Source: an uncultured Acetobacteraceae bacterium
GTDB lineage: Bacteria > Pseudomonadota > Alphaproteobacteria > Acetobacterales > Acetobacteraceae
Assembly (NCBI GenBank): GCA_937873095.1
Contig: CALMVI010000067.1
Location: 1-34,987 of the forward strand
Length of the DNA stretch: 34,987 nt
Direction: 5' to 3'
A model generated the notes under the pieces. That model had not been told where the DNA came from. It saw only the letters and a program-made list of their open reading frames with translations, and did no database searches. The stretch's first letter is position 1. Each line of letters begins with the position of its first letter. Below are positions 51-23,877 of the stretch, in pieces. Position numbers and translations under genes: made by a program.

Positions 51-761
51 CTACGAGCTCGCCGCCTGCTCCACATCCGCCCCGTGCGCCTTCGACCAGG
101 CCACCGGGTTCTCCAGAAACCGCCTTACCTCGGCCAGATGCGCCTCGGGAAAATACGGGCGGTCGCGGCAGGCTTCCAGCACGTCCCACCAGGTGCAGAG
201 GTGGTGCAGCGTGATGTCCATCTGCTTGAGCTTTTCCAGGCTGCCGGGGAACACGCCGTAGTAGAACACGACGAAGGCGTGGTTCACGATCGCGCCGGCA
301 TCCCGCAGCGCCTGGGTGAACTTGATCTTCGAGCGGCCGTCCGTGGTGAGGTCTTCGACGAGCAGGGTGCGGCGGCCGTCCGGCACGTCGCCCTCGATGA
401 GCGCGTTCTTGCCGAAACCTTTGGGCTGCTTGCGGACATAGGCCATCGGCGTCTGCAGCCGGTCGGCGATCCAGGCCGCGAAGGGAATGCCGGCCGTCTC
501 GCCGCCCGCCACCACTTCGATCTGCTCGAAGCCCACATGGCGGTTCAGCTTTTCCACGCCCAGCTCGCAGATGCGGGCGCGGGCGCGGGGGAAATAGATG
601 ATCTTGCGGCAGTCGATATAGACCGGCGACTTCCAGCCCGAGGTGAGCGTGTAGGGTTCGTCCGGCCGGAAATTGAGCGCGCCGATCTCCAGCAGGATGC
701 GTGCGGCCGTCAGCGCCGCGTCCCTGTCCCAATCCGTCGCTGCCACGCCCTGCGTCTCCAT
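51..761 (-). CDS. pyrE: Orotate phosphoribosyltransferase
   Basis: Makes orotidine 5'-monophosphate from orotate and PRPP, the fifth step of pyrimidine synthesis, in the cytosol. The 236-residue product has the family N-terminus (ILLEIGALNF, then TLTSGWKSPVYIDCRK) and the PRPP loop region LLVEDLTTDGRSK, where the acidic pair precedes a small-residue loop. Length is near the upper end for the family. The ATG at 761 has a weak upstream GGCAGG; an in-frame GTG at 746 has GGAG nine bases upstream and is a fair alternative. It is divergent from the pdeM operon, and the 116-bp gap between them carries a LexA-type box on the pdeM side. Family assignment is firm; the start is uncertain by five codons. 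Confidence 0.95.
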   Translation of the reverse strand: METQGVAATDWDRDAALTAARILLEIGALNFRPDEPYTLTSGWKSPVYIDCRKIIYFPRARARICELGVEKLNRHVGFEQIEVVAGGETAGIPFAAWIADRLQTPMAYVRKQPKGFGKNALIEGDVPDGRRTLLVEDLTTDGRSKIKFTQALRDAGAIVNHAFVVFYYGVFPGSLEKLKQMDITLHHLCTWWDVLEACRDRPYFPEAHLAEVRRFLENPVAWSKAHGADVEQAASS

Positions 762-836
762 GCCTGCCCGAACGGCGTTTCTGCATCGCGGCAGGGGCGC
801 GGTAAAGGCGCGCCCTGGTGCGGCGCCCGCCCATGC

Positions 837-851
837 GTTCTATACAGGTTC
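837..851 (+). promoter_or_regulatory. LexA-type SOS box before pdeM operon
   Basis: The sequence GTTCTATACAGGTTC is an exact GTTC-N7-GTTC direct repeat, the LexA operator form of alphaproteobacteria. It ends 26 bases before the pdeM ATG. The spacer holds TATACA (841-846), a plausible -10 hexamer, so a bound repressor would cover the promoter. No convincing -35 is visible. The genes behind it are repair genes, which makes SOS control likely, but LexA itself is not in the window. Confidence 0.7.
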
Positions 852-877
852 TCCCGACCAGGAGTTTGTCGTCCCGC

Positions 878-1645
878 ATGGCCAGCATCACCTTCCGCGG
901 CGAAACGCTTCTGCTGGACCCGGCGGGCGTGCTGGTCTGGCCGCGCCTTTCGCTGCTGGCGGTGGCCGACCTGCACCTGGAAAAGGGCAGCGCCTGCGCC
1001 GGGCGCGGCCAGCTGGTGCCGCCCTGGGACAGTTGCGGGACGCTGGCCAGGCTGGCCGAGCTCGTGCGGCGGCACGCGCCGCGCACCGTGGTCGCGGTGG
1101 GCGACAGCTTCCACGACGCCCACGCCGCAACCCGGCTGTCGGATGCCGACGCGGCCGTGCTGGCCTCCATCGGGCAGGCGGCGGCACTGGTCTGGGTCCG
1201 CGGCAACCACGACCCGCTGCCGCCGGCGGGGATCGCTGGGCATGCGTGCGAAACTTTCGCCGCCGAAGGATTGTTGTTCCGGCACCAGGCGGCAAGCCGC
1301 CGATCGCTGCCCAATGCGCCAGGCGAGGTGTCGGGCCATTTCCACCCCAAGGCGCGCGTGGCCACGCGCGTCGGAGAGATCGTTCGACCCTGTTTCATGA
1401 CCGACGCGCACCGCATCATGCTTCCCTCCTTCGGCGCCTACACGGGCGGCCTGGATGTGCGCAGCCCTGCCATCGCGCGGCACTATCCCGAGGGCGGCCG
1501 CGCCTTCCTGCTGGGCCGCGACCGGGTCTTCTGCTTCGCCATCCCCCCGGACGGCCAGGCGGCGACGCCGTGCGATGATCTCGCCCCAGTGCGCCGGAGC
1601 GGCCCGCGTGCTTCCCCCTGGGGCAGGGCGCCCAGGGTCTGGTGA
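878..1645 (+). CDS. pdeM: Ligase-associated metallophosphoesterase PdeM
   Basis: Calcineurin-like phosphoesterase of the ligase-associated DNA damage response set, whose other members are Lhr helicase, exonuclease and DNA ligase; those three are 9-15 kb downstream. Metal-binding motifs occur in order: DLH (31-33), GDSFHD (75-80), GNHD (109-112) and GHFHP (153-157). The 255-residue product is somewhat longer than usual because of a basic, low-complexity tail after about residue 230. The ATG at 878 begins the family-typical MASITFRGE; the upstream ATG at 818 would place the LexA-type box inside the gene. AGGAG lies at 860-864. Its stop overlaps the photolyase start (TGATG), so the two are probably translationally coupled. 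Confidence 0.9.
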   Translation: MASITFRGETLLLDPAGVLVWPRLSLLAVADLHLEKGSACAGRGQLVPPWDSCGTLARLAELVRRHAPRTVVAVGDSFHDAHAATRLSDADAAVLASIGQAAALVWVRGNHDPLPPAGIAGHACETFAAEGLLFRHQAASRRSLPNAPGEVSGHFHPKARVATRVGEIVRPCFMTDAHRIMLPSFGAYTGGLDVRSPAIARHYPEGGRAFLLGRDRVFCFAIPPDGQAATPCDDLAPVRRSGPRASPWGRAPRVW

Positions 1646-3081
1646 TGGCAAACGCCTCGGGAACGTCGCTGGTCTGGTTCCGCCAGGATTTGCGCCTGCA
1701 CGACCAGCCGGCGCTGCTGGCTGCCATGGCGGGCGGGGCGCGCGTGCTCGCCGTCTACGTGCTGGACGACACCATCGCCTGGCCGGCGGGCGGCGCCTCG
1801 CGCTGGTGGCTGCATAGCAGCCTGGCGTCGCTGGGCGCAGCACTGCGGCAGGCCGGCGCTGGCCTGGTGCTGCGGCGCGGCCGCTCGACGGAGATCATCC
1901 CGGCCCTGGCGCGCGAGGCGGGGGCGGGGGTGGTGCATGCCGGGATCGGGCACGAGCCCGGCTGGCGGACGGCCGACGCCGAGGTCGCGCGCCTGCTTGC
2001 CGCGGACGGCCGCGCGCTGGCGCTTCACCGCACCGCCTCGCTGATCGATTTCGATGCGGTCCGCAGCAAGACCGGCACGGTCTATGGCATGTACACTCCC
2101 TTCGCCCGCGCGGTCGAGGAGCTGGGCGAGCCGGGCCGGCCGGAACCGGCGCCCGTCGCCATCAAGCCGGCCAAGGCGGTGGCGAGCGACCGGCTGGAGG
2201 ATTGGGACCTGCTGCCGACGCATCCCGACTGGGCGGGCGGCTTTCGCGCGACCTGGACGCCGGGCGAAGCCGCGGCGGCCAGCCGGCTGGCGCAGTTCGT
2301 GGGCGGGGCGGTGGCGCGCTACGGCACCGGCCGCAACCTGCCGGGCGAGGACGGCACGTCCATGCTGTCGCCGCACCTGCATTTCGGCGAGCTGTCGCCG
2401 CGCGCCGTCTGGCACGCCAGCCGGGTGGAGGGCGAGGGCCGCGATCACCACACCTATCGCCGCGAGCTGATCTGGCGCGATTTCTCGGCCTACCTGCTGT
2501 GGCACCACCCGACGCTGCCCGAGGCGCCGCTTCGCCCGGCCTTCGCCCGGCTGGCCAGCCGGACCGACCCGGACGGGCTGCGCGCCTGGCAGCGCGGGCT
2601 GACCGGCGTGCCGATCGTGGACGCAGGCATGCGCCAGCTCTGGCAGACCGGCTGGATGCACAACAGGGTGCGGATGATCGCGGCCTCGTTCCTGGTCAAG
2701 CACCTGCTGATCGCGTGGCAGGAGGGTGCGGCGTTCTTCTGGGACACGCTGGTGGATGCCGACCTGGCCAGCAACAGCGCCAGCTGGCAATGGATCGCCG
2801 GCACCGGCATCGACAGCCAGCCCTTCTTCCGGGTGTTCAACCCGGTGACTCAGGGGGAGAAGTTCGACGCCGACGGCGGCTACGTCCGCCGTTTCGTGCC
2901 CGAGCTGGCGCGGTTGCCGGACAAATACGTGCACGCGCCCTGGACCGCGCCGGCGGCGGTCCTGGCCGAGGCTGGGGTGACGCTCGGGGGCAATTACCCG
3001 CGTCCGGTGGTGGATCTGAACGAGGGCCGGAATCGTGCGCTGGACGTGTATCGCAGGACGGTGCGGGAGGCGGCCGCGTGA
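1645..3081 (+). CDS. phr: Deoxyribodipyrimidine photolyase (cryptochrome/photolyase)
   Basis: Light-driven, FAD-dependent repair of UV pyrimidine dimers. The N-terminal antenna domain starts LVWFRQDLRLHDQPAL. The C-terminal FAD domain shows LSPHLHFGELSPR, ELIWRDF, GVPIVDAGMRQLWQTG, MHNRVRM, and the run ending in NSASWQWIAGTGID that is typical of class I enzymes. Length is 478 residues, normal for the class. The ATG at 1645 shares its A with the pdeM stop; a GTG one codon earlier is possible. It is the second gene of a three-gene operon behind a LexA-type box. A different, FeS-type photolyase is encoded at 4529-6076. Whether this enzyme repairs CPDs or acts only as a cryptochrome cannot be told from sequence; CPD repair is most likely. 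Confidence 0.93.
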   Translation: MANASGTSLVWFRQDLRLHDQPALLAAMAGGARVLAVYVLDDTIAWPAGGASRWWLHSSLASLGAALRQAGAGLVLRRGRSTEIIPALAREAGAGVVHAGIGHEPGWRTADAEVARLLAADGRALALHRTASLIDFDAVRSKTGTVYGMYTPFARAVEELGEPGRPEPAPVAIKPAKAVASDRLEDWDLLPTHPDWAGGFRATWTPGEAAAASRLAQFVGGAVARYGTGRNLPGEDGTSMLSPHLHFGELSPRAVWHASRVEGEGRDHHTYRRELIWRDFSAYLLWHHPTLPEAPLRPAFARLASRTDPDGLRAWQRGLTGVPIVDAGMRQLWQTGWMHNRVRMIAASFLVKHLLIAWQEGAAFFWDTLVDADLASNSASWQWIAGTGIDSQPFFRVFNPVTQGEKFDADGGYVRRFVPELARLPDKYVHAPWTAPAAVLAEAGVTLGGNYPRPVVDLNEGRNRALDVYRRTVREAAA

Positions 3082-3746
3082 ACATCCCGTCCGGCCGCGG
3101 CCTGCGCATCGTGGGGGACGTGCACGGCGATCTGCGCGCCTTCGCCTTCGCCGCCGACACCGACCGCTTCGTGGTGCAGCTGGGCGACCTGATCGATAGC
3201 GGGCCGGACAGCGCGGGCGCGCTGCGGCTGATGTTCCGGCTGATCGACGAGGGGCGGGGACTGTTCCTGGTGGGCAATCACGACCGCAAGCTGGGCCGTG
3301 CGCTGCGCGGCGAACGGGTGCGCGGCGGCCCGCAGCTGGACGCCACGATGGCGGCGCTGGATGCCCCGCTGCGCGCCCGCGCGCTGGCGGAGATGGAGCG
3401 CGCGCCGGCCTGGCTGGTTCAGGAGCGGCGGTTTTTCGTCCACGCCGCGTTCCACACCGGCATGCTGGCGCACGCGCCGCCAGACCCGCTCGGCCCGGTC
3501 GATCCGCTGCTGTCGCGCGCCATGTTCGGCGAGACCACCGGCCGCACCCAGGCGGACGGGTTCCCCGAACGGCTGCTGCGCTGGGTGAACCACATCCCGA
3601 GCGGCATGACGGTCTATTGCGGCCACGACCAGCGCAGCCGAGACGGCCGGCCATGGGTGACGCATGGCGATGGCGGCGGCACGGCCGTGTTCATGGACAC
3701 CGGCGCCGGCAAGGGCGGGCATCTGAGCTGGGTGGATCTGGATTGA
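3078..3746 (+). CDS. Metallophosphoesterase, PP2A-like phosphatase
   Basis: A 222-residue phosphoesterase of the PPP/ApaH type. The metal-ligand motifs are all present: GDVHGD near residue 14, GDLIDSG near 37, GNHDRK near 63, a central His in FVHAAFH, and GHD near 180. This resembles bacterial Ser/Thr phosphatases such as PrpA, or the phosphatase part of Pnkp-type end-healing enzymes. It starts with GTG inside the photolyase stop (GTGA overlap), so it is the third gene of the pdeM operon. Fusion to a LexA-type-controlled repair operon raises the possibility that it acts on DNA ends or on a signalling phosphoprotein during damage. The substrate is unknown; the fold assignment is secure. Confidence 0.85.
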   Translation: MNIPSGRGLRIVGDVHGDLRAFAFAADTDRFVVQLGDLIDSGPDSAGALRLMFRLIDEGRGLFLVGNHDRKLGRALRGERVRGGPQLDATMAALDAPLRARALAEMERAPAWLVQERRFFVHAAFHTGMLAHAPPDPLGPVDPLLSRAMFGETTGRTQADGFPERLLRWVNHIPSGMTVYCGHDQRSRDGRPWVTHGDGGGTAVFMDTGAGKGGHLSWVDLD

Positions 3747-3747
3747 A

Positions 3748-3785
3748 TGCTATAAGGTGGATAGCGGACACCGTGTCCGCTATCC
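3748..3785 (+). promoter_or_regulatory. Extended -10 promoter with 27-nt palindrome
   Basis: TG-C-TATAAG (3748-3756) is a good extended -10. Directly after it lies a perfect 13-bp inverted repeat: GGATAGCGGACAC (3759-3771), one centre base (3772), then GTGTCCGCTATCC (3773-3785). The palindrome ends one base before the GGAGG of the next gene. Its position over the expected transcript start fits an operator, and the GCGGACAC/GTGTCCGC core is of the kind bound by TetR-family repressors. As RNA it would form a strong hairpin beside the ribosome binding site. No repressor gene is nearby. Confidence 0.6.
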
Positions 3786-3795
3786 GGAGGCGCAC

Positions 3796-4077
3796 ATGGC
3801 TGACGTAAGCCTCGAATTGCTGCAGACCATGGTTCAGCGCGTGCTCGATGACCAGGACAAGCAGCGCCGCGAGCTTAACGCAATTCGTTCGGTGCTGCTC
3901 GACGTGGTCGAGCAGGGACGCCGGACCGAGCGCCGGATTACCGAGGTCAAGGACGACGTCGAGCTGATGGTGAAGTCCGAAATGATGGGCCGCCTGGGTT
4001 ATTTCGAGACCCGGATGGAGGCCCGCATAGAAGCGCTGGCGAGCAGTCTGCCCGGTCATTCAGACCCGGAGCGATGA
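3796..4077 (+). CDS. Small coiled-coil protein of unknown function
   Basis: I do not recognise a named family. The 93-residue product is highly charged and predicted helical, with repeated hydrophobic spacing (LLQTMVQRVLDDQDKQ, then IRSVLLDVVEQGRR, then EVKDDVELMVKSEM) that suggests a coiled coil. It has no signal peptide, membrane segment or cysteine. GGAGG (3786-3790) sits five bases before the ATG, a strong translation start. It has its own promoter and palindrome and is separate from the phosphatase operon upstream. Similar short helical proteins accompany many accessory modules, but nothing here identifies a partner. Confidence 0.7.
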   Translation: MADVSLELLQTMVQRVLDDQDKQRRELNAIRSVLLDVVEQGRRTERRITEVKDDVELMVKSEMMGRLGYFETRMEARIEALASSLPGHSDPER

Positions 4078-4098
4078 GAGGCCACCGGAGCATTCTAT

Positions 4099-4464
4099 AT
4101 GCACGCGATGCCATTGTATGAAGATTTGACCCCGTTCATCGGTGATCAGATCAGTCAGATCAGGCTCGATCCGTATGGCGTTCAGTTTTCCTTCGATAGC
4201 GGAAGCCACCTGTCGGTCGGACATCGCCTTGAACATTGTGAGCCGGCTGGAGACCAGTATTCTTACGGCTGCGTTGCAAGCGAAGGCGCAGCGATTTCAC
4301 TCCACTGCTTGATCCAACGACGAGTGGCGTCACTCGAGCGAGAGGAGCTTGCGTTCACTCTCTGCTTCCAAAATGGAGCATGGCTGAAGATCCATTCGAA
4401 GCTTGGTCCATACGAGTGTGGGACCATCGCCGGTGGGAAGTTTGCCGGTTATTTTGTGTTTTGA
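4099..4464 (+). CDS. Hypothetical protein, possibly DUF6188-like
   Basis: A 121-residue soluble protein. Its pattern, an early I-x-Q-I-R-L-D-P-Y-x-V-Q-F-x-F-D-S-G segment and a later GAWLKIHSKLGPYE, reminds me of the DUF6188 group of small beta-rich proteins, some of which sit in immunity-type settings. This is a weak, memory-based link. GGAG (4087-4090) lies eight bases before the ATG at 4099; a second ATG at 4108 is possible. GC content and codon use are visibly lower than in neighbouring genes (AT-rich third positions, ATA and TTG codons), which suggests acquisition by transfer. It follows the coiled-coil gene by 21 bp and could be co-transcribed with it. Confidence 0.6.
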   Translation: MHAMPLYEDLTPFIGDQISQIRLDPYGVQFSFDSGSHLSVGHRLEHCEPAGDQYSYGCVASEGAAISLHCLIQRRVASLEREELAFTLCFQNGAWLKIHSKLGPYECGTIAGGKFAGYFVF

Positions 4465-4528: not shown

Positions 4529-6076
4529 TCATGTCGGCTCCGGTTCAACACGCATCGCGTCGGACGCCAGGAACGCCGCCGCGTTTGCCCGCATCTTGGC
4601 GAGCTTGGCCGGGTCCATGCGGGACAGGGTCTTGATCGGCATCGCCAGCCTGATGTTGCCGGCCAGCGCCTTTTCGTGGCGGGCGAAGAAATCCCAGTAG
4701 AGATAGTTGAACGGGCACGCGTTGGGTCCGACCGCGTCCTTCACGTCGTAGGCGCAGCCGCGGCAGTAGTCGCTCATCCGGTTGATGTACGAGCCCGATG
4801 CCGCATACGGTTTGGAGCCCATGATGCCGCCGTCGGCGAACAGGGCCATGCCGCGCACGTTGGGCATTTCCACCCACTGATACGCGTCGGCGTACACGAT
4901 CAGGTACCACTCATCGACGTCGTCCGGGTGCAGGCCGGCGAGCAGGGCGAAATTGCCGGTGATCATCAGGCGCTGGATGTGGTGCGCGTAGGCATGCGCC
5001 AGCGTATCGGTGATCGCATGGTGCAGGCAGTTCATCCGCGTGCGGCCGGTCCAGTAGAACCACGGCATGCGCTGGGTCGCGCCCAGCGCGTTCTTGTGCG
5101 CGTAATCCGGCATGTTCATCCAGTAGATGCCGCGCACGTATTCGCGCCAGCCGACGATCTGGCGGATGAACCCTTCCACCGCGTTCAGTTTGGCGTGGCC
5201 GCGCCGGTAGGCGTCTTCGGCGGCCGCACAGATCTCGCGCGGCAACAGCAGGCCGAGATTCATCGAGGTTGAGACGAGCGCGTGGAACAGCACCGGCTCG
5301 CCCGCCTTCATCGCGTCCTGGAAGGTGCCGAAGCTCGGCAGGCGATACTCGATGAAGTCGGACAGCGCGGCGTGCGCGTCTTCCGCGGTGACGGGCAGCG
5401 CGAAATCGCCCGCGCAGCCGACATGGGCGGGAAAGTGGCGTTCGACGAGCGCGATCACGTCGCGAGTGATCGCGTCCGGCTGGAAGCGCGGCACCGGAGG
5501 GTTGGCGACGCCTCTGGGCAGGCTGGCGCGGTTCTCGCGGTCGTAGTTCCAGGCGCCGCCTTCGGGCTGGTCGCCATCCATCAGGATCGCGTGCCGGCGC
5601 CGCATGTCGCGGTAGAAGAACTCCATGCGCAGGCCGCGGCGGTCGCGCGCCCAGGCCAGGAACTCCTGGATGCGGGCGAAAAAACGCGTGTCGTCGCGTA
5701 TGTCGACCTCCAGCCCCGCCGCCTCGTGCCAGTGCCGCATGTCCTCGCTCAGGCGCCACTCGCCCGGTTCGGTCAGCACCGCGCGATCTGCCTTATGGCG
5801 TTCTATCGCGCGCAAGAACTCGCCGCGCAGCGACTGGGTGTTGTCCGGGTCGTCGAGCGTCACGTACTCCACGGTCACGCCGCGCGCGCGCAGGGCGGCC
5901 GCGAAATGGCGCATGCCCGACAGCACGAGCACGATCTTGTGGGCGTGGTGGCGGACATAGGTGCACTCGGCCTGCACCTCGGCCATCAGGACCACGTCCC
6001 GCGCCGGGTCGAGGTCGCTGAGCGCGCTCAGCGACGCGCTGAGCTGGTCGCCCAGGATCATCCGCAACACGCCCAT
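4529..6076 (-). CDS. FeS-type photolyase (FeS-BCP / PhrB-like)
   Basis: Member of the cryptochrome/photolyase-related family that carries FAD, a lumazine-type antenna and a [4Fe-4S] cluster; characterised members repair (6-4) photoproducts. The 515-residue product starts MGVLRMILGDQLSASL, the typical antenna N-terminus. Cysteines at 350 (MNCLHHA), 438 and 441 (CRGC) and 454 (NACPF) fall at the same numbers I recall for the cluster ligands of Agrobacterium PhrB. The start at 6076 is set by AGGAG about nine bases upstream; the frame stays open further but gives only low-complexity shadow sequence. It is divergent from sixA. Together with the photolyase at 1645 the strain could repair both main UV lesions. 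Confidence 0.92.
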   Translation of the reverse strand: MGVLRMILGDQLSASLSALSDLDPARDVVLMAEVQAECTYVRHHAHKIVLVLSGMRHFAAALRARGVTVEYVTLDDPDNTQSLRGEFLRAIERHKADRAVLTEPGEWRLSEDMRHWHEAAGLEVDIRDDTRFFARIQEFLAWARDRRGLRMEFFYRDMRRRHAILMDGDQPEGGAWNYDRENRASLPRGVANPPVPRFQPDAITRDVIALVERHFPAHVGCAGDFALPVTAEDAHAALSDFIEYRLPSFGTFQDAMKAGEPVLFHALVSTSMNLGLLLPREICAAAEDAYRRGHAKLNAVEGFIRQIVGWREYVRGIYWMNMPDYAHKNALGATQRMPWFYWTGRTRMNCLHHAITDTLAHAYAHHIQRLMITGNFALLAGLHPDDVDEWYLIVYADAYQWVEMPNVRGMALFADGGIMGSKPYAASGSYINRMSDYCRGCAYDVKDAVGPNACPFNYLYWDFFARHEKALAGNIRLAMPIKTLSRMDPAKLAKMRANAAAFLASDAMRVEPEPT

Positions 6077-6203
6077 CGACCGCTCTCCTGACTGAACGGA
6101 CATACATCGCCGCGCGACCTTCGCAGGTTCGCCGCGTCTCCGACTCACGTGGCCAAACCCGGGCTTTGCGCGCCCATACCGCGTGTGCGAGCCTGGGCGC
6201 GCG

Positions 6204-6728
6204 ATGCAACAGCTGCTCCTCCTGCGACACGCCAAATCGTCCTGGGACGACATCGGACAGTCGGACCACGCGCGCCCGCTGAACGCCCGCGGCCGGCATG
6301 CGGCGGCGCAGATGCGCACGGTCATCCGCGAGCTTGGGCTGGTGCCGGACGTGGTGCTGGTCTCGTCGGCGCGGCGCACCCGACAGACCCTGGACGCGCT
6401 GGCGCCCTGGGACGAGACCCCGATCATCGAGCCGATGGACGGGCTTTACCTGGCGGAGGCGGCCCGCATACGCGAGGTGGTGCGCGGCGTGTCGGCGACG
6501 GTGCGCAGCCTGATGCTGGTCGGCCACAACCCCGGGCTGCACGACTTCGCGGTCGGGCTGGCCGGGCCGAGCGACGGCAGCCAGATGTTCCAGCGCATGT
6601 CCGAGGGCTTCCCTGCCGGCGCACTGGCCGAATTCCTGGTCCCGCATGGCTGGGGCGAGCTGGGCGAAGGCGGCGGCCGACTGGTCCGCTTCGTCTGCCC
6701 GCGCGACCTGACGGAGGCGGCGGGCTGA
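6204..6728 (+). CDS. SixA-type histidine phosphatase
   Basis: Histidine (phosphoglycerate-mutase-like) phosphatase of the SixA group, 174 residues. The catalytic RHAKSS motif contains the phosphate-accepting His9, and GHNPG supplies the second His (108); SARRTRQT is the arginine-bearing segment. SixA proteins dephosphorylate phosphohistidine on signalling proteins, though many of these short homologues lack a proven substrate. The ATG at 6204 was chosen because the family begins right at MQQLLLLRHAK; the longer start at 6183 adds seven atypical residues. Its stop overlaps the proposed CTG start of the CYTH-CHAD gene, a neighbour pairing that is common in proteobacteria. Confidence 0.9.
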   Translation: MQQLLLLRHAKSSWDDIGQSDHARPLNARGRHAAAQMRTVIRELGLVPDVVLVSSARRTRQTLDALAPWDETPIIEPMDGLYLAEAARIREVVRGVSATVRSLMLVGHNPGLHDFAVGLAGPSDGSQMFQRMSEGFPAGALAEFLVPHGWGELGEGGGRLVRFVCPRDLTEAAG

Positions 6729-9766: not shown

Positions 9767-9991
9767 CTAGCACTCGCAGCCTGGCGTCTCGCCGGTCGCC
9801 TGGCGGGTGATGTGGTGGTCGATCCATTCGGAGACCAGCGCGCGCGCTTCGCTCAGGCCCGCCTCGGGATGGTGGATGCGATATAATGTCGTGCAGCTCT
9901 GGAAGGCGGACATGTCGTCCGTGCCCGCCCGCCGAAGCTCGCGATAGGCGGTGACGACGGCGCGTTCGCAGCGGCGTCCGATTTCTGCCAC
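9767..9991 (-). CDS. Small conserved-looking protein, unknown function
   Basis: A 74-residue protein I cannot name. It is charged and mostly helical, with cysteines in RRCER, QSCTT and the C-terminal GCEC, a spacing unlike the known bacterioferritin-associated ferredoxin pattern. The frame allows a GTG at 10000 or at 9991; the GGAG sits eight bases before 9991 and almost touches 10000, so I chose 9991. Codon use is like that of its neighbours and supports a real gene. It follows lhr on the same strand with 69 bp between, and a Fur-box-like repeat lies directly upstream. Confidence 0.6.
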   Translation of the reverse strand: MAEIGRRCERAVVTAYRELRRAGTDDMSAFQSCTTLYRIHHPEAGLSEARALVSEWIDHHITRQATGETPGCEC

Positions 9992-10021: not shown

Positions 10022-10060
10022 ATGCGGATAGGCTACCCGCATCGCAGGCGCGCCGCAACA

Positions 10061-12499
10061 TCAGCGTGGCGGGACCGGGACAGTTCGCTCCGACGTGGCC
10101 TCGGCGATCAGCGCCTCCTCCTCCTCGCGCAGGAAGGCGTCCTCGTCGGCCCTGGTGCGGACCACCTCGCGTCCGATGTCCAGCATCACCGGCACGGCAA
10201 GCGGGGAGACGCGGTCCAGCCGGCGCACGCGCACGTGGCCCTGCGCGCGGTCGAGCAGGAGCGAGATGCGGCTGAGGTCGGTCAGCCCGCTCGCCGCGTC
10301 GGCGCGGGTGGCCTTGAGCAGGATGTGGTCGGGCTGGTGCCGGCGCAGCACGTCGTAGATCAGGTCGCTGTTCACGGTGACCTGGCGCCGGTTGCGCTCG
10401 ACGCCCGGCTGGTGCCGCTCGATCAGCCCGGCGATCACGGCGACGTTGCGGAACGTGCGGCGCAGCATGCTGCTTTCCGCCATCCAGGCTTCGAGGTCGT
10501 CGCCCAGCATGTCGTGGTCGAACAAATCGTCGATGTCCCGCGGTTCGTTGCCCGACCAGACGGCGATCACGTAGTCGGTGGCGACGAAGCCGAGCGGTGC
10601 GATGCCGGCCCGCTCCATCCGCTTGGTCAGCAGCATGCCCAGCGTCTGGTGCGCGTTGCGGCCCTCGAAGGTGTAGGCGACGAGGTACCAGCGGCCCTGG
10701 CGCGGAAAGATCTCGACCAGCAGGTCGTCCGGCCCTGGCAGCTCGGAGCGGTGAAGCTGCAGGTCCAGCCATTCGCGGACCGGCTCGGGATAGGCGTGCC
10801 AGGCGGACGGGTCGTGCAGCATGGCGCGCACGCGGGCGGCAAGGTTGGTGGTCAGCGGCATCTTGGTGCCCGCATAGGCGGGGACGGCAGGAATGCCGGT
10901 GCCGCCATCGGTGCAGACGAGCGTGGTCTCGTGAATGCGTTCGAAGCGCAGCAGGCGGCCGGCGAACATGAAGGTGTTGCCAGGGCGGAGGCTGGTCGCG
11001 AACATCTCCTCGAGCTCGCCCAGGCGCAGCCCGCGCACGCCGCCGAGCCGCACCTGCAGCAGCGGCGCCTCCACGATGGTGCCGACGTTCATGCGGGCCT
11101 GGCGCGCGATGCGCGCGTTCACGACGTGCACCAGACCTTCGGAATCGCGAAACAGCTTGCGGTAGCGTTCGTAGCTGGCCAGCGCGTAGCCGCCGGTCTC
11201 GACGAACTCCAGCACGCCGTCGAACTCGCTCCTGCCCATCGCGGCGTAGGGCGCGGCACGGCGCACTTCGGCGAACATGGCGTCGGGATGGAACGGCGTG
11301 CCGCAGGCGGTCAGCAGCAGGTGCTGGGCCAGCACGTCCAGCCCGCCCGGCCGGGGCGGGTCGCCGTCCAGCTCGTGGGCCGCGACCCCGGCGATGGCCG
11401 CCTGGCACTCCAGCACCTCGAACCGGTTGGCCGGCACCAGGATCGCCTGGCTCGCCTCGTCCATGCGGTGGTTGGATCGGCCCACGCGCTGCAGCAGGCG
11501 GGACACGCCCTTGGGCGCGCCGACCTGGATCACCTGGTCCACCCCGCCCCAGTCGATGCCGAGGTCGAGCGAGGAGGTGGCAACGACGGCGCGCAGCTGT
11601 CCCTGCGCCATCGCCGCTTCCACGCGCAGCCGCTGCGCCAGGTCCAGGCTGCCGTGGTGCAGGGCGATGGGCAGGGTGTCGTCGTTGAGCTTCCACAGCT
11701 CCTGGAAGATCATCTCGCCCTGGGCGCGGGTGTTGACGAACACGATGGTCATGCCGGCCGACCGCACCCGCTCCAGGATCACGCTGGCCGAGGCGAGCCC
11801 CATGTGCCCGGCCCAGGCGAAGTTCTGCTCGGGCAGCATCATGCGCAGCGCGGGCGGCGCGCCCTGCGGCACCACGACCTGGCGGGCGGGCCCGCCGGCG
11901 CCGACATAGGCGAGCAGCGGCGCTGGATGGGCGACGGTTGCAGACAGGCCCACCCGGCGCGCCAGCGGCGCCAAAGCGGTCAGGCGCGCAAGGCCGAGTG
12001 CCAGCTGGTCGCCGCGCTTGGTGCCGGCCAGCGCGTGGATCTCGTCGATGACCACCGTGTCGAGCGTGGCGAAGAACTCGGCCGAGCGTTCCTGGCTCAG
12101 CAGCACGGCCAGGCTTTCGGGCGTGGTGAGCAGGATGTCGGGCGGCTGCTCCTGCTGCTTGCGGCGGCGTTCGGAGGACGTGTCGCCGGTGCGCGTTTCG
12201 ATCCGGATGGGCAGCGCCATGTCGGCGACCGGCACGGTGAGGTTGCGCGCGATGTCGGCCGCCAGCGCCTTGAGCGGGCTGACATAGAGCGTGTGGATGC
12301 CGTCATGCGGCCGAGGCTCGGCCAGGGCCACCAGGCTCGGCAGGAATCCGGACAGCGTCTTGCCGCCGCCGGTCGGCGCGATCAGCAGCACGCTTTCGCG
12401 CGCGCGCGCCGCGTCGAGCATGGCGAGCTGGTGAGGGCGGGGCGACCAGCCGCGGGCCGAGAACCAGGCGGAGAAGCGGTCCGGCAGCGGTCCGGGCAT
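10061..12499 (-). CDS. lhr: Ligase-associated Lhr-type DEXH helicase
   Basis: Superfamily 2 ATP-dependent 3'-5' DNA helicase of the Lhr-core type, 812 residues, the length expected for the ligase-associated subgroup. Motifs: Walker A APTGGGKT (41-48), Walker B box DEIH (152-155), LSATV (motif III), and QRVGRSNHR (motif VI), followed by the winged-helix and Lhr-specific C-terminal regions. The ATG at 12499 begins at the usual place, about 20 residues before the PHQ Q-like motif; no strong ribosome site is seen. In Pseudomonas and others this gene is co-transcribed with ligase, exonuclease and phosphoesterase. Here it is divergent from exonuclease and ligase, separated from them by a toxin-antitoxin pair. 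Confidence 0.95.
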   Translation of the reverse strand: MPGPLPDRFSAWFSARGWSPRPHQLAMLDAARARESVLLIAPTGGGKTLSGFLPSLVALAEPRPHDGIHTLYVSPLKALAADIARNLTVPVADMALPIRIETRTGDTSSERRRKQQEQPPDILLTTPESLAVLLSQERSAEFFATLDTVVIDEIHALAGTKRGDQLALGLARLTALAPLARRVGLSATVAHPAPLLAYVGAGGPARQVVVPQGAPPALRMMLPEQNFAWAGHMGLASASVILERVRSAGMTIVFVNTRAQGEMIFQELWKLNDDTLPIALHHGSLDLAQRLRVEAAMAQGQLRAVVATSSLDLGIDWGGVDQVIQVGAPKGVSRLLQRVGRSNHRMDEASQAILVPANRFEVLECQAAIAGVAAHELDGDPPRPGGLDVLAQHLLLTACGTPFHPDAMFAEVRRAAPYAAMGRSEFDGVLEFVETGGYALASYERYRKLFRDSEGLVHVVNARIARQARMNVGTIVEAPLLQVRLGGVRGLRLGELEEMFATSLRPGNTFMFAGRLLRFERIHETTLVCTDGGTGIPAVPAYAGTKMPLTTNLAARVRAMLHDPSAWHAYPEPVREWLDLQLHRSELPGPDDLLVEIFPRQGRWYLVAYTFEGRNAHQTLGMLLTKRMERAGIAPLGFVATDYVIAVWSGNEPRDIDDLFDHDMLGDDLEAWMAESSMLRRTFRNVAVIAGLIERHQPGVERNRRQVTVNSDLIYDVLRRHQPDHILLKATRADAASGLTDLSRISLLLDRAQGHVRVRRLDRVSPLAVPVMLDIGREVVRTRADEDAFLREEEEALIAEATSERTVPVPPR

Positions 12500-12813
12500 G
12501 ACGGGAGTGTTTTAGGGCACGCTGACAGCAAGGCAACCGATAAATCTTGCTATAAGCTCGGGTATGGCCGAGCCCGATGGCAATAAGCGAAGGACGAAGG
12601 CTGCTGCGTCTGGGAAAACGTGCGATTAGCTGAGTGGTCGAGTGAATTACTTAACAGTGTTGCAGTCTTGTCAGATCGCCAATCTACATGTCGTGACGTC
12701 CGATGCTGAACTTTTGTCGAGAGGGGCAGCCCAGTCCGGCTCATACTTTGCGGCCATGGCTCGTTATTTTCAGCACGCGACGTTGTCAAACCTCTTGAAC
12801 TCAGGCGACGATG
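12500..12813. other. Divergent intergenic region, no gene seen
   Basis: This stretch between lhr and the antitoxin is lower in GC than the flanks. A weak lhr promoter is possible on the minus strand: TTGCCT (complement of 12531-12536) and TAAAAC (complement of 12509-12514), 16 bases apart. Reading frames of 90 and 147 codons cross it but have no ribosome site, unusual codon use and no recognisable content. I see no LexA-type box here. It may be the remains of DNA brought in with the toxin-antitoxin pair. Confidence 0.5.
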
Positions 12814-12833
12814 TGCTATCATGCTTGATAGCA
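12795..12833 (+). promoter_or_regulatory. Toxin-antitoxin promoter and FitAB-like operator
   Basis: TTGAAC (12795-12800) and TATCAT (12817-12822) are spaced 16 bases apart and make a strong promoter. The -10 lies inside a perfect inverted repeat, TGCTATCATGCTTGATAGCA (12814-12833), with 8-bp arms and a 4-base spacer. From memory, TGCTATCA/TGATAGCA is the half-site bound by gonococcal FitAB, where the spacer is longer. Position and sequence both support repression by the antitoxin-toxin complex. Confidence 0.75.
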
Positions 12834-12848
12834 GCTTGGAAGGCCGTC

Positions 12849-13085
12849 ATGGCGCAGCTTCTTGTGAGGGACTTGGATGACATGCTTGTTCGGCTGCTGC
12901 GGCAGCGTGCGGCCGTGAACAACCGGTCGGCCGAGGCGGAGCATCGCGCCATTCTGGAACAGGCTTTGCTGATCAATGGCGAGCCGTTCTGGGACGTGGC
13001 GAAGCGGCTGCGAGACGAGACGGCCGGGCATACAGCGTCCGACAGCACGGAAATTGTGCGACACTATCGCGATACGCGTTTTTGA
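12849..13085 (+). CDS. FitA-like ribbon-helix-helix antitoxin
   Basis: A 78-residue antitoxin of the FitA/VapB type. The N-terminal MAQLLVRDLDDMLVRLLRQRA is the DNA-binding strand and first helix of a ribbon-helix-helix dimer, and NNRSAEAEHRAILEQAL is the second helix, with the AE-EHRAIL pattern typical of FitA. The C-terminal part would wrap the toxin. GGAAGG (12838-12843) lies five bases before the ATG. The upstream palindrome matches FitAB-type autoregulation. Its stop overlaps the toxin start by TTGA, the usual antitoxin-first order. Confidence 0.9.
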   Translation: MAQLLVRDLDDMLVRLLRQRAAVNNRSAEAEHRAILEQALLINGEPFWDVAKRLRDETAGHTASDSTEIVRHYRDTRF

Positions 13086-13513
13086 AAGCTGCGGTCATCG
13101 ATGCCAGCGTCGCAGTCAAGCTTGTGACGCTGGAAGATTATTCTGACCAGGCCGACCAACTGGTCAGAAGCGTGCCGGCTCTTTATGCGCCGGCGCATTT
13201 TCTGGCGGAAGCATCCAACGTTCTGTGGGCGAAAGTTGCGATCCGACGAACGCTGGCGCCAGAGTTGCTGATTGCGCGGTTGGACTTTCTGACGCAACTG
13301 GCGGTCGGAACGACGCCGCTGCCGACACTCATTGTTCAGGCGGGCTCGATCGCGATGGAGCTGAACGTCAGCGTCTATGATGCGCTGTATCTGGCTCTGG
13401 TGGAGCGTACGGACGCGCCGCTGGTGAGCGACGACCGCAGGTTGATTGCTGCCGGCAAGCGATCGGCGCGGTTCTCCCAGAAGGTCATCTGGATTGGCGA
13501 TTTCGCCGCCTGA
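13082..13513 (+). CDS. PIN-domain toxin (VapC/FitB family)
   Basis: A 143-residue PIN-domain ribonuclease. The four acidic residues expected at the metal site are present: Asp in VIDASVAVK (residue 7), Glu in AEASNVLW (about 43), Asp in VYDALYLAL (about 99) and Asp in VSDDRRL (about 117). Toxins of this family cut tRNA or rRNA. It starts with TTG overlapping the antitoxin stop. Unusually, its own stop is only one base before the exonuclease ATG, so the toxin-antitoxin pair and the repair genes downstream are probably one transcript. All catalytic residues are intact, so it should be active. Confidence 0.9.
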   Translation: MKAAVIDASVAVKLVTLEDYSDQADQLVRSVPALYAPAHFLAEASNVLWAKVAIRRTLAPELLIARLDFLTQLAVGTTPLPTLIVQAGSIAMELNVSVYDALYLALVERTDAPLVSDDRRLIAAGKRSARFSQKVIWIGDFAA

Positions 13514-13514
13514 C

Positions 13515-14543
13515 ATGCCGCACCCCGACACCTGGCTCTGCGTCCGCCCGGAAGGCCTCTACTGCTCACCAGGCAACTTCTTCATCGACCCGGTCGTGGC
13601 GGTGCCGCGCGCGGTCATCACCCACGCCCATGCCGATCACGCCCGCCCGGGACATGGTGCGGTGCTGGCGACGCGGCAGACGCTGGCCATCATGGACGTG
13701 CGCATGGGGCAGGGCCGCGCAGGCGGCACGCAGCAGGCGCTGGCGCCTGGCGAGACCCTGACCATTGGCGACGTCCGCGTCTGGATGCAGCCGGCGGGCC
13801 ACGTGCTGGGCAGCGCGCAGGTGGCGATCGAGCACCAGGGCAGCCGGGCGGTGATCAGCGGCGACTACAAGCGCGCCTCCGACCCAACCTGCGCGCCGTT
13901 CGTGCCGATCCCGTGCGACGTGTTCGTGACCGAGGCGACCTTCGGGCTGCCCATCTTCGTGCACCCGCCGGCATCCGGCGAGGTGCGCAAGCTGGTCGAC
14001 AGCGTCGCCCTGTTTCCCGAGCGCACGCACGTCGTCGGCTGCTACGCGCTGGGCAAGGCGCAACGCCTGATCGCCCTGTTGCGGGCGGAAGGGTGGGAGC
14101 GGCCGGTCTATCTGCACGGCGCGCTGATCGCGCTCTGCACCCTCTACGAACAGCTTGGCGTGGCGCTGGGCGACCTGCGGCCTGCGACCGGCGCGCACAA
14201 GGCCGACCTGGCGGGAGCGATCGTCCTGGCCCCGCCCTCGGCCATCGCCGACCGCTGGGCGCGCCGTCTGGCCGAGCCGGTGACCGTGCTGGCGTCGGGC
14301 TGGATGCGGGTGCGGCAGAGGGCGCGCGCGAAGGGGGTGGAACTGCCGCTGGTGATCTCCGACCACGCGGACTGGCCGGAGCTGCTGGCGACGCTGGACG
14401 AGGTGGGCGCGCCCGAAGTGTGGGTGACGCACGGGGCCGAGGAGGCGCTGATCCACGCTGCCCAGGCACGCGGCCTGCGCGCCCGCGCCCTTCGCCTGCT
14501 CGGCTACGGCGACGACTCAGCCGAAGAGGCGCCCCCAAATTGA
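13515..14543 (+). CDS. Ligase-associated exonuclease (beta-lactamase fold)
   Basis: Metallo-beta-lactamase/beta-CASP family nuclease of the ligase-associated DNA damage response set, 342 residues. The HAHADH motif (37-42) binds the metals; GHVLGSAQ, SGDYKR and the C-terminal SDHADW supply further ligands. Related proteins are SNM1/Pso2-like DNA exonucleases. The ATG at 13515 follows the toxin stop after one base. There is no ribosome site close enough upstream, so translation probably depends on ribosomes finishing the toxin gene. The ligase follows after 46 bases that hold a hairpin. Confidence 0.92.
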   Translation: MPHPDTWLCVRPEGLYCSPGNFFIDPVVAVPRAVITHAHADHARPGHGAVLATRQTLAIMDVRMGQGRAGGTQQALAPGETLTIGDVRVWMQPAGHVLGSAQVAIEHQGSRAVISGDYKRASDPTCAPFVPIPCDVFVTEATFGLPIFVHPPASGEVRKLVDSVALFPERTHVVGCYALGKAQRLIALLRAEGWERPVYLHGALIALCTLYEQLGVALGDLRPATGAHKADLAGAIVLAPPSAIADRWARRLAEPVTVLASGWMRVRQRARAKGVELPLVISDHADWPELLATLDEVGAPEVWVTHGAEEALIHAAQARGLRARALRLLGYGDDSAEEAPPN

Positions 14544-14590
14544 GAAAAGTCTTCTGCTTCTTTTCTTCAGAAAAGAAGGTTTTTTTGTTG
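14543..14590 (+). promoter_or_regulatory. Hairpin masking the ligase ribosome binding site
   Basis: A perfect AT-rich inverted repeat, CTTCTTTTCT (14557-14566) and AGAAAAGAAG (14569-14578), is followed by G and seven T. The ligase Shine-Dalgarno (AAGAAGG, 14573-14579) is the right arm, so the hairpin would block translation. The left arm can instead pair with AGAAAAG (14543-14549, starting at the exonuclease stop), which would free it. It could also act as an intrinsic terminator or attenuator. Function is inferred from structure only. Confidence 0.55.
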
Positions 14591-16179
14591 TGATAGCCTT
14601 CGCCGAATTGCTGGACCGCCTGACCCTGACCCCAGGCCGTCTCGCGAAAATCGCGTTACTGCGAAGGTTTTTCGAAACCGAGGCGGACCCCGACCGCGGC
14701 TGGGCGCTGGCGGCGCTGACCGGCGAATTGTCCTTCGCGACAGCGAAGGCGGGGCTGATCCGCGCTGTGGCCGAAGCGCGCGTCGATCCCGTTCTGCTCG
14801 GCTGGTCATACGATTTCGTGGGCGATTTGGCCGAGACCGTAGCGCTGATCTGGCCGGCCACGACGGAAGCGGCGCCGCCGAGCGTGACCGAGATCGTGGA
14901 AGCATTACGCACAAGGCCCAAGGGCGAACTCCCCGCTCTGTTGACAGGGTGGTTGGACACGTCCGGCCCGAACGTCCGGTATGCGGTATTGAAAATGATC
15001 ACCGGGGAGTTGCGCGTCGGCGCCTCGGCCCGTCTGACCAAGACCGCGCTGGCCGAGTTTGCCGCGGCGCATGGGCGCGTGGTGGCGCCGGACGATGTGG
15101 AGGAGGTCTGGCACAGCCTGACCCCGCCCTATCAGCCGCTATTCGACTGGCTGGAGGGACGCAGCGAGGCGCCGGACGCCGCAGGCGCGCCGGTGTTCCG
15201 CCCGCCGATGCTGGCGCATCCGTTGGAGCCGCCCGACCTGGCGGCGCTGGATGCCGCGGCCTACGCCGCGGAGTGGAAGTGGGACGGCATACGCGTGCAG
15301 CTGGTGCGTGCGCCTGGCGGGCAGCGGGTGTTTTCCCGCGGCGCCGAGGACGTGTCGGCCGCGTTCCCCGACCTCGACGGCGTGCTGGCGAGCGACGCGG
15401 TGCTGGACGGGGAGCTTCTGGTGGTGCGCGACGGCGCGGTGGCGCCGTTCGCCGACCTGCAGCAGCGGCTGAACCGCAAGACGGCGTCGGCCAAGCTGGT
15501 GCGGGACTTTCCGCTGCGGGTCAGGCTGTACGACATCCTGTTCGACGGCGCCGAGGATGTGCGCGCGCTGCCGTTTCCGCAGCGCCGCGCGCGCCTGGAA
15601 GGCTGGATGGCGCGCCACCCGTCCGACCGCCTGGACCTCTCCGAGCTGATTGCCTTCGGATCGATCGACGAGCTGGCCGCCATACGCGAGGGCACGCGCG
15701 CCGCCTCCATAGAGGGGCTGATGCTGAAGCGCCTGGACAGCCCCTACGTGCCCGGCCGCCCCAAAGGCCTGTGGTGGAAGTGGAAGCGCGACCCGCTGAC
15801 GATCGACGCGGTGGTGATGTATGCCCAGCGCGGCCACGGCAAACGCAGCAGTTTCTACAGCGACTACACGTTCGGGCTGTGGCGCGACGACGGCGAGCTG
15901 GTGCCGGTGGGAAAGGCCTATTCCGGCTTCACCGACGAGGAGCTCGTCAAGCTCGACCGCTGGATACGCAACCACACGGTCAAGGCGTACGGCCCGGTGC
16001 GGGAGGTGGAGCGCGGTCTGGTGCTGGAAATCGCCTTCGACGCCGCGCAGTTTTCCACCCGCCACAAATCGGGTGTCGCCCTGCGGTTTCCCCGCGTGGC
16101 CCGGCTGCGCTGGGACAAGCCGTTCGAAGAAGCGGACCGGCTGGAGACTCTGCTGGGGCACATCGCGCGCCAGGCCTGA
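14590..16179 (+). CDS. ATP-dependent DNA ligase (ligase-associated repair type)
   Basis: Seals DNA nicks using ATP. The 529-residue product has an N-terminal DNA-binding domain (about 1-195), the adenylation domain with active Lys230 in EWKWDGIR, motif III around LDGELLVV, motif IV SIEGLMLKR and motif V WWKWKRD, then an OB-fold domain. This layout is the LigB/LigC-like type found with Lhr, exonuclease and PdeM. It starts with GTG, whose ribosome site AAGAAGG lies inside a hairpin. The main NAD-dependent replicative ligase would be elsewhere. The gene ends before a convergent membrane-protein gene. Confidence 0.94.
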   Translation: MIAFAELLDRLTLTPGRLAKIALLRRFFETEADPDRGWALAALTGELSFATAKAGLIRAVAEARVDPVLLGWSYDFVGDLAETVALIWPATTEAAPPSVTEIVEALRTRPKGELPALLTGWLDTSGPNVRYAVLKMITGELRVGASARLTKTALAEFAAAHGRVVAPDDVEEVWHSLTPPYQPLFDWLEGRSEAPDAAGAPVFRPPMLAHPLEPPDLAALDAAAYAAEWKWDGIRVQLVRAPGGQRVFSRGAEDVSAAFPDLDGVLASDAVLDGELLVVRDGAVAPFADLQQRLNRKTASAKLVRDFPLRVRLYDILFDGAEDVRALPFPQRRARLEGWMARHPSDRLDLSELIAFGSIDELAAIREGTRAASIEGLMLKRLDSPYVPGRPKGLWWKWKRDPLTIDAVVMYAQRGHGKRSSFYSDYTFGLWRDDGELVPVGKAYSGFTDEELVKLDRWIRNHTVKAYGPVREVERGLVLEIAFDAAQFSTRHKSGVALRFPRVARLRWDKPFEEADRLETLLGHIARQA

Positions 16180-23663: not shown

Positions 23664-23877
23664 CGTGGGGGAAGGCTCCAGGTCTCGTTGAGGCGGCAAC
23701 GTGGTGCCCCGCGCCCGCATTGTCCAGGCAGGCCGCCCCGCCAGGGCCTGGACGCGCCGGCACGGGGCAGATGGCGGCAGGCAGGCACATCAGAACGAAC
23801 TCCCAACGTATTATTCGTGTCATACTCGCGGGTTATGGAAATGTTAATGAGATTGCATCGCTATGAGGAATTTGCCG

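Follow-up and report, generated by a model that had tools for sequence, protein, structure and literature searches.

The 15-base site GTTCTATACAGGTTC is a predicted LexA operator before pdeM, at the junction of an inversion that separated pdeM from the helicase gene lhr, whose start carries a LexA-type box in many relatives; we give this reading a probability of roughly three in four. The window, meaning the whole stretch of DNA that was analysed, is 34,987 nucleotides long and makes up the whole of contig C67, one of 162 in a draft assembly of 3.69 Mb. The site has GTTC at 837-840, a TATACAG spacer, and GTTC at 848-851 of the forward strand, with 26 bases between it and the pdeM ATG at 878, and the start of pyrE lies 75 bases away. 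A preliminary description of this DNA, made from the letters alone, had reported an exact GTTC-N7-GTTC repeat 26 bases before pdeM, and it had the sequence and the coordinates exactly right. The features are as follows, with G001 and G002 denoting two congener genomes.

51-761, reverse strand: pyrE, divergent neighbor, outside the inversion (NF001729, 373.5 bits)
762-877, no strand assigned: divergent intergenic region between pyrE and pdeM, the left inversion junction (gene order compared with the congener genomes)
837-851, forward strand: LexA box GTTCTATACAGGTTC, GTTC-N7-GTTC, predicted operator (exact motif and matrix ranks)
841-846, forward strand: TATACA, inside the box, proposed earlier as a -10 element (sequence only)
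878-1645, forward strand: pdeM, ligase-associated metallophosphoesterase nuclease, MPE (TIGR04123, 197.1 bits, passing the curated cut-off of 150; solved relatives 6nvo and 6nvp, "Nuclease MPE")
1645-3081, forward strand: phr, cryptochrome/photolyase family (PF00875 and PF03441, run on 1642-3081; best solved match 4u63, DNA photolyase)
3078-3746, forward strand: PP2A-like metallophosphatase (PF00149; best solved match 4j6o, metallophosphoesterase)
4529-6427, reverse strand: DPRP, a second photolyase-related gene (PF04244)
9767-9991, reverse strand: small ORF that marks the right junction (aligned with G001; visible in the G002 sequence)
10061-12499, reverse strand: lhr, ligase-associated DEXH helicase, split from pdeM by the inversion (TIGR04121, 1080 bits)
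12478-12492, reverse strand: position of the relatives' LexA box in lhr, reading GACCGCTGCCGGACC (comparison with relatives)
12642-13513, forward strand: FitA-like antitoxin and PIN-domain ORFs, between lhr and the exonuclease
13446-14543, forward strand: ligase-associated exonuclease (TIGR04122, 457 bits)
14590-16179, forward strand: ATP-dependent DNA ligase of the set (TIGR04120, 767 bits)

The three genes downstream of the site are tightly packed, the phr ATG overlapping the pdeM stop and the phosphatase overlapping phr by GTGA. They stand in the same order in both congeners, and among 80 named loci a photolyase gene is found within 600 bases downstream of pdeM in 30. The label PP2A-like is fair for the phosphatase, since it matches 4j6o and, below their cut-offs, the TIGR04075 (Pnkp), PrpE and ApaH-type models; it is possible that it is a nucleic-acid end-healing phosphatase. 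Shortly past the operon and convergent with it is DPRP, which adjoins the phosphatase in both congeners as well. At 3759-3785, in the gap that separates the phosphatase from a small ORF starting at 3797, two 13-base arms form a perfect inverted repeat around a single central base; no T run comes after it.

Counting the bare motif was rejected as evidence for an operator. The site is the sole exact GTTCN7GTTC in the window, and because 38 of 100 dinucleotide-shuffled windows hold at least one (mean 0.49 per shuffled window), its presence is weak evidence and not significant. Genome-wide there are 81 occurrences, 39 forward and 42 reverse, versus 40 for the reversed control pattern. The suggestion that the box contains the likely -10 was not confirmed, as a sigma-70 consensus scan of 700-4200 recognized no promoter.

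What the operators of this genome look like can be read from its own SOS genes. One LexA gene was found, with GTTCTAATTAAGTTC upstream (read on one strand), and recA carries GTTCACTTTTAGTTC. The same form of box stands before three more genes: one that is imuA-like (ImuA match of 40 bits, below the NCBIfam cut-off of 150), one for a radical-SAM repair protein of TIGR03916, and one for a radical-SAM protein of the PA0069 type. The preliminary description had thus assumed the right operator form. Across the family, which is probably Acetobacteraceae, exact-form boxes are found at 13 of 24 recA genes, which implies that an exact search may miss real targets; the recA of G001 has no exact box in the stretch searched. 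The simple gene caller used to name the targets of boxes missed some genes, so the named targets cover only part of the 81 boxes.

Three further places in this genome are recorded here for their own sake. The sequence GTTCATGATATGTTC at C71:18967-18981 (L032:2001-2015) ranks second of the 81 with the broader matrix described below. At C106:4016-4030 (L052:2001-2015), GTTCTGGTAATGTTC is identical to one form of the relatives' lhr box and precedes a small ORF of membrane-spanning appearance that matches no Pfam model; the ORF may belong to a phage-like region and be under SOS control. On C137 (L062:2001-2066), a PA0069-type radical-SAM gene has a pair of GTTCN7GTTC boxes upstream, oppositely oriented and with their starts 51 bases apart.

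Two matrices were used to score the site against the other boxes of the genome. Of 30 family lexA loci examined, the genome's own included and with 230 bases searched at each, 27 have an exact box and 3 do not. The lexA-trained matrix was built on 25 lexA operators from other family genomes, excluding the genome's own lexA and L205. On it GTTCTATACAGGTTC scores 24.5 bits and ranks second of the 81 exact boxes, behind the genome's own lexA (28.5) and ahead of a third box at 17.3, so that it resembles family lexA operators beyond the half-sites. The training set spans 25.7-34.6 bits, while the genome's own recA and imuA boxes score 11.6 and 11.9, and since both are under 15 bits a matrix of lexA operators is too narrow to be the sole test. 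No box in 6 simulated genomes equals the score of the site. Against an independent-base background that score has p = 3.9 × 10−9 per position, or about 9 × 10−7 for both strands of the 116-base intergenic region, values that are descriptive because the threshold is the site's own score. The broader matrix was trained on relatives' lexA, lhr and recA boxes, the lhr pattern contributing 21 boxes from 20 loci. It gives GTTCTATACAGGTTC 20.3 bits (p = 9.7 × 10−8 per position, descriptive for the same reason) and fifth place of 81, the drop being due to the last spacer base, which is G here versus T in the lhr operators and mostly T in the recA boxes. The next broader-matrix score in the window is 12.8, at 23832.

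We then ask whether relatives keep a box at pdeM, and they mostly do not. The 176 pdeM upstream regions comprise 2 congeners, 94 family genomes and 80 named loci; the named loci and the family genomes share some species, the pdeM starts in the named loci are approximate, and L267 has only 124 bases upstream of pdeM. With the lexA matrix at a threshold of 15 bits, none of the 176 passes, the best reaching 14.1. Exact boxes number 5 of 176, being 0 of 2 in the congeners, 2 of 94 in the family genomes and 3 of 80 in the named loci. Both family boxes (L178 and L248) and the named L150 lie inside the last codons of lhr, with broader-matrix scores of 17.1 for L150 and L178, which are apparently the same contig, and 18.4 for L248. 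The remaining two are possible cases of a separate LexA box at pdeM in another lineage. L151 (12.0 bits, broader matrix) has its exact box about 15 bases before a possible pdeM start, and L154, a Rhodospirillaceae MAG, has one at 219-233, about 35 bases before a possible start, whose 21.7 bits exceed the 20.3 of the window site. The comparison with relatives thus goes against a conserved site at this place, and the predicted box of the window is, as far as sampled, specific to its lineage. The sampling reaches no closer than a genome with 69% PdeM identity. Homology of the pdeM promoter with that of G002, suggested by a shared CTATAC, is not claimed, the upstream score being 27 versus a best of 30 in 300 shuffles.

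Scanning whole loci brings out a recurrent box in another place, the start of lhr, some 2.5 kb ahead of pdeM. A GAAC-N7-GAAC lies over the first lhr codons in 20 of 27 family genomes, G001 and G002 among them, mostly as GAACATTGCCGGAAC or a close variant; in a few the spacer is altered with both half-sites kept, and in 7 of 27 the box is missing. These come from 30 lhr loci, chosen from pdeM-positive genomes mostly in listing order, less L315, L319 and L322, which were dropped with the helicase start off the contig; G016 is counted as a miss though its helicase match begins at profile position 174. Among the named loci with a readable lhr start, 23 of 42 have a box no more than 75 bases before a conserved helicase motif and 19 do not, and two of the 23 (L086 and L104) differ from the common lhr box in spacer and position. 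Among the loci read, none of those with a Hyphomicrobiales or Rhizobiales label has a box at the lhr start, and neither do some Acetobacteraceae loci.

The box is translated as x-T-L-P-E, with the usual codons GGA ACA TTR CCR GAA. In the remainder of the 20 lhr genes that have the box, ACA accounts for 11 of 744 threonines, TTA and TTG together for 112 of 1992 leucines, and GGA for 49 of 1379 glycines; GAA is not rare, at 266 of 1052 glutamates. Because most of the box codons are rare in the rest of lhr, the DNA, and not the peptide alone, seems to be conserved, as would be expected of an operator that lies within a reading frame. By tblastn, the end of lhr is directly upstream of pdeM (within 400-500 bases) in 75 of 96 genomes, so the lhr box could control pdeM too, and in many relatives the genes of the pdeM operon appear to be switched from the site at the lhr start. 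A LexA-type box for the operon is thus conserved in relatives at lhr, in 20 of the 27.

The window has neither GAAC half-site at the lhr box position 12478-12492, where the codons are GGA CCG CTG CCG GAC, and the window scan finds no exact LexA box or high-scoring site at lhr, the exonuclease or the ligase. The preliminary description had proposed that the box ties the ligase-associated repair set to the SOS response. The boxes at the lhr start make such a link plausible for lhr-pdeM in relatives; it does not extend to lhr, the exonuclease and the ligase of this genome. The FitA-like and PIN-domain ORFs that precede the exonuclease are likely a toxin-antitoxin pair, and the distance between the lhr and exonuclease matches is about 1,000 bases here versus about 190 and 510 in the congeners.

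The gene order shows how pdeM and lhr came apart. In G001 it runs pyrE (−), gltA (−), CHAD (−), sixA (−), DPRP (+), phosphatase (−), phr (−), pdeM (−), lhr (−), exonuclease (+). In the window, compared with both congeners, the block of gltA, CHAD, sixA-like, DPRP, phosphatase, phr and pdeM is reversed between pyrE and lhr, which fits one simple inversion of about 9 kb. The small ORF at 9767-9991 adjoins lhr here and lies between pyrE and gltA in G001 and G002. By the inversion pdeM has lost its lhr-side promoter and now faces pyrE, and the predicted LexA box is in that junction. In G002 pdeM and lhr lie on separate contigs, and a different gene precedes pdeM; the lhr box is kept there and pdeM has no exact box, so replacement would not be automatic and the outcome differs between lineages, the genus comparison being one of three genomes. 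The 8-base palindrome GGCGCGCC occurs at both junctions, 807-814 and 10047-10054, and is perhaps breakpoint microhomology. An exact breakpoint from the similarity of the pyrE upstream region to G001 is not claimed, the score of 37 equalling the best of 200 shuffles.

We propose that LexA uses the 15-base site as an operator, which overlaps the pdeM promoter or adjoins it. Binding at 837-851 would keep the pdeM-phr-phosphatase operon repressed until RecA-stimulated cleavage of LexA, set off by DNA damage, freed it. The ancestral state would be that of most family relatives examined, with pdeM after lhr and the LexA box in the first lhr codons; in the lineage of the window, the inversion would have cut the operon, the lhr box would have gone, and the pdeM piece would have come to carry its own operator at the junction. 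LexA control of pdeM-phr-phosphatase is likely because the matrix rank is high and because lexA, recA, imuA and the radical-SAM genes share the form of the site. The earlier proposal that the photolyase and the phosphatase come under SOS control together with PdeM stands as far as the overlapping genes, the lexA/recA form and the closeness to family lexA operators go; it gets no help from conservation of the box. Since the lhr half-sites are absent and the pdeM piece has a box of its own, SOS control seems to have been kept for pdeM-phr-phosphatase and lost from lhr. Persistence of LexA control through a new operator, with lhr leaving the regulon, seems the most economical account. Whether SOS control actually followed the genes, in the sense that the inversion broke the operon, the lhr codons lost their operator, and pdeM gained a new one of lexA-like form at the junction, we consider an even bet.

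The two GTTC tetramers might instead flank an AT-rich stretch at a new promoter by chance, with no action of LexA. The abundance of the bare motif in the genome, often within genes, and in shuffled windows fits this, as does the lack of conservation at pdeM, and the lexA-trained score may partly reflect a promoter-like A/T content common to lexA operators. We nevertheless think chance improbable, given the second and fifth places among the 81, the empty simulated genomes, and a position ahead of the very genes that come after a LexA-boxed lhr in many relatives.

Much less probable still are two other readings. The site could be a real LexA operator that acts mainly on the divergent pyrE, or on pyrE and pdeM alike, and its distance of 75 bases from the pyrE start, compared with 26 from pdeM, would allow this; against it, the searched pyrE-gltA stretches of G001 and G002 hold no GTTCN7GTTC, and it is lhr-pdeM that has a LexA-type box in many relatives. 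To our knowledge, pyrE is also not a usual SOS gene. A junction created by misassembly, with the box and the operon not adjacent in the cell, deserves about as little credence. It draws on the fragmentation of the draft, a junction about 800 bases from the contig end, and the palindrome shared by the junctions at 807 and 10047, but the junction regions compared share no exact inverted match of more than 8 bases, both junctions are within one contig, and the genes on either side fit one simple inversion. We retain the predicted operator at pdeM as the preferred reading.

Known systems resemble parts of this arrangement. The main text of PMC12700426 has GTTCN7GTTC as the Caulobacter SOS-box consensus. 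The window site agrees with that alphaproteobacterial LexA/SOS box in half-sites, spacing, nearness to a start codon, and the form found at the genome's own lexA and recA; it differs in its target, pdeM-phr-phosphatase, in not being conserved there, and in being a predicted site. That main text has no mention of a helicase, photolyase or ligase, its gene list being in the supplement. The main text of PMC8301817 reports an MPE-lhr neighborhood in 276 of 319 genomes and does not use the word SOS. As in that Lhr-Core/MPE bacterial repair cluster, pdeM belongs to the MPE nuclease family and lhr, the exonuclease and the ligase are within the window, whereas here the inversion splits lhr from MPE, and the partners of MPE are a photolyase and a metallophosphatase. 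PMC11323726 describes the mycobacterial lhr-nei2 operon as damage-induced; both are Lhr helicase operons, the mycobacterial one raised by DNA damage, and the partner gene differs. In the literature searched, with most subscription papers (including Erill 2004) outside its scope, we found no description of LexA control of ligase-associated lhr or pdeM.

The Lhr-Core/MPE cluster, with which Ejaz and Shuman 2018 is reportedly associated, is widespread and has, as far as we know, no well-established physiological trigger. The presence of a LexA-type box within the coding sequence of lhr in many genera of one family would put the cluster in the SOS response and predict when it is active. With its inversion, the locus offers a natural experiment that asks which part of the cluster requires SOS control. 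If control did follow the genes, selection in this lineage would keep the damage response in charge of the MPE nuclease, the photolyase and the phosphatase, and not of the helicase.
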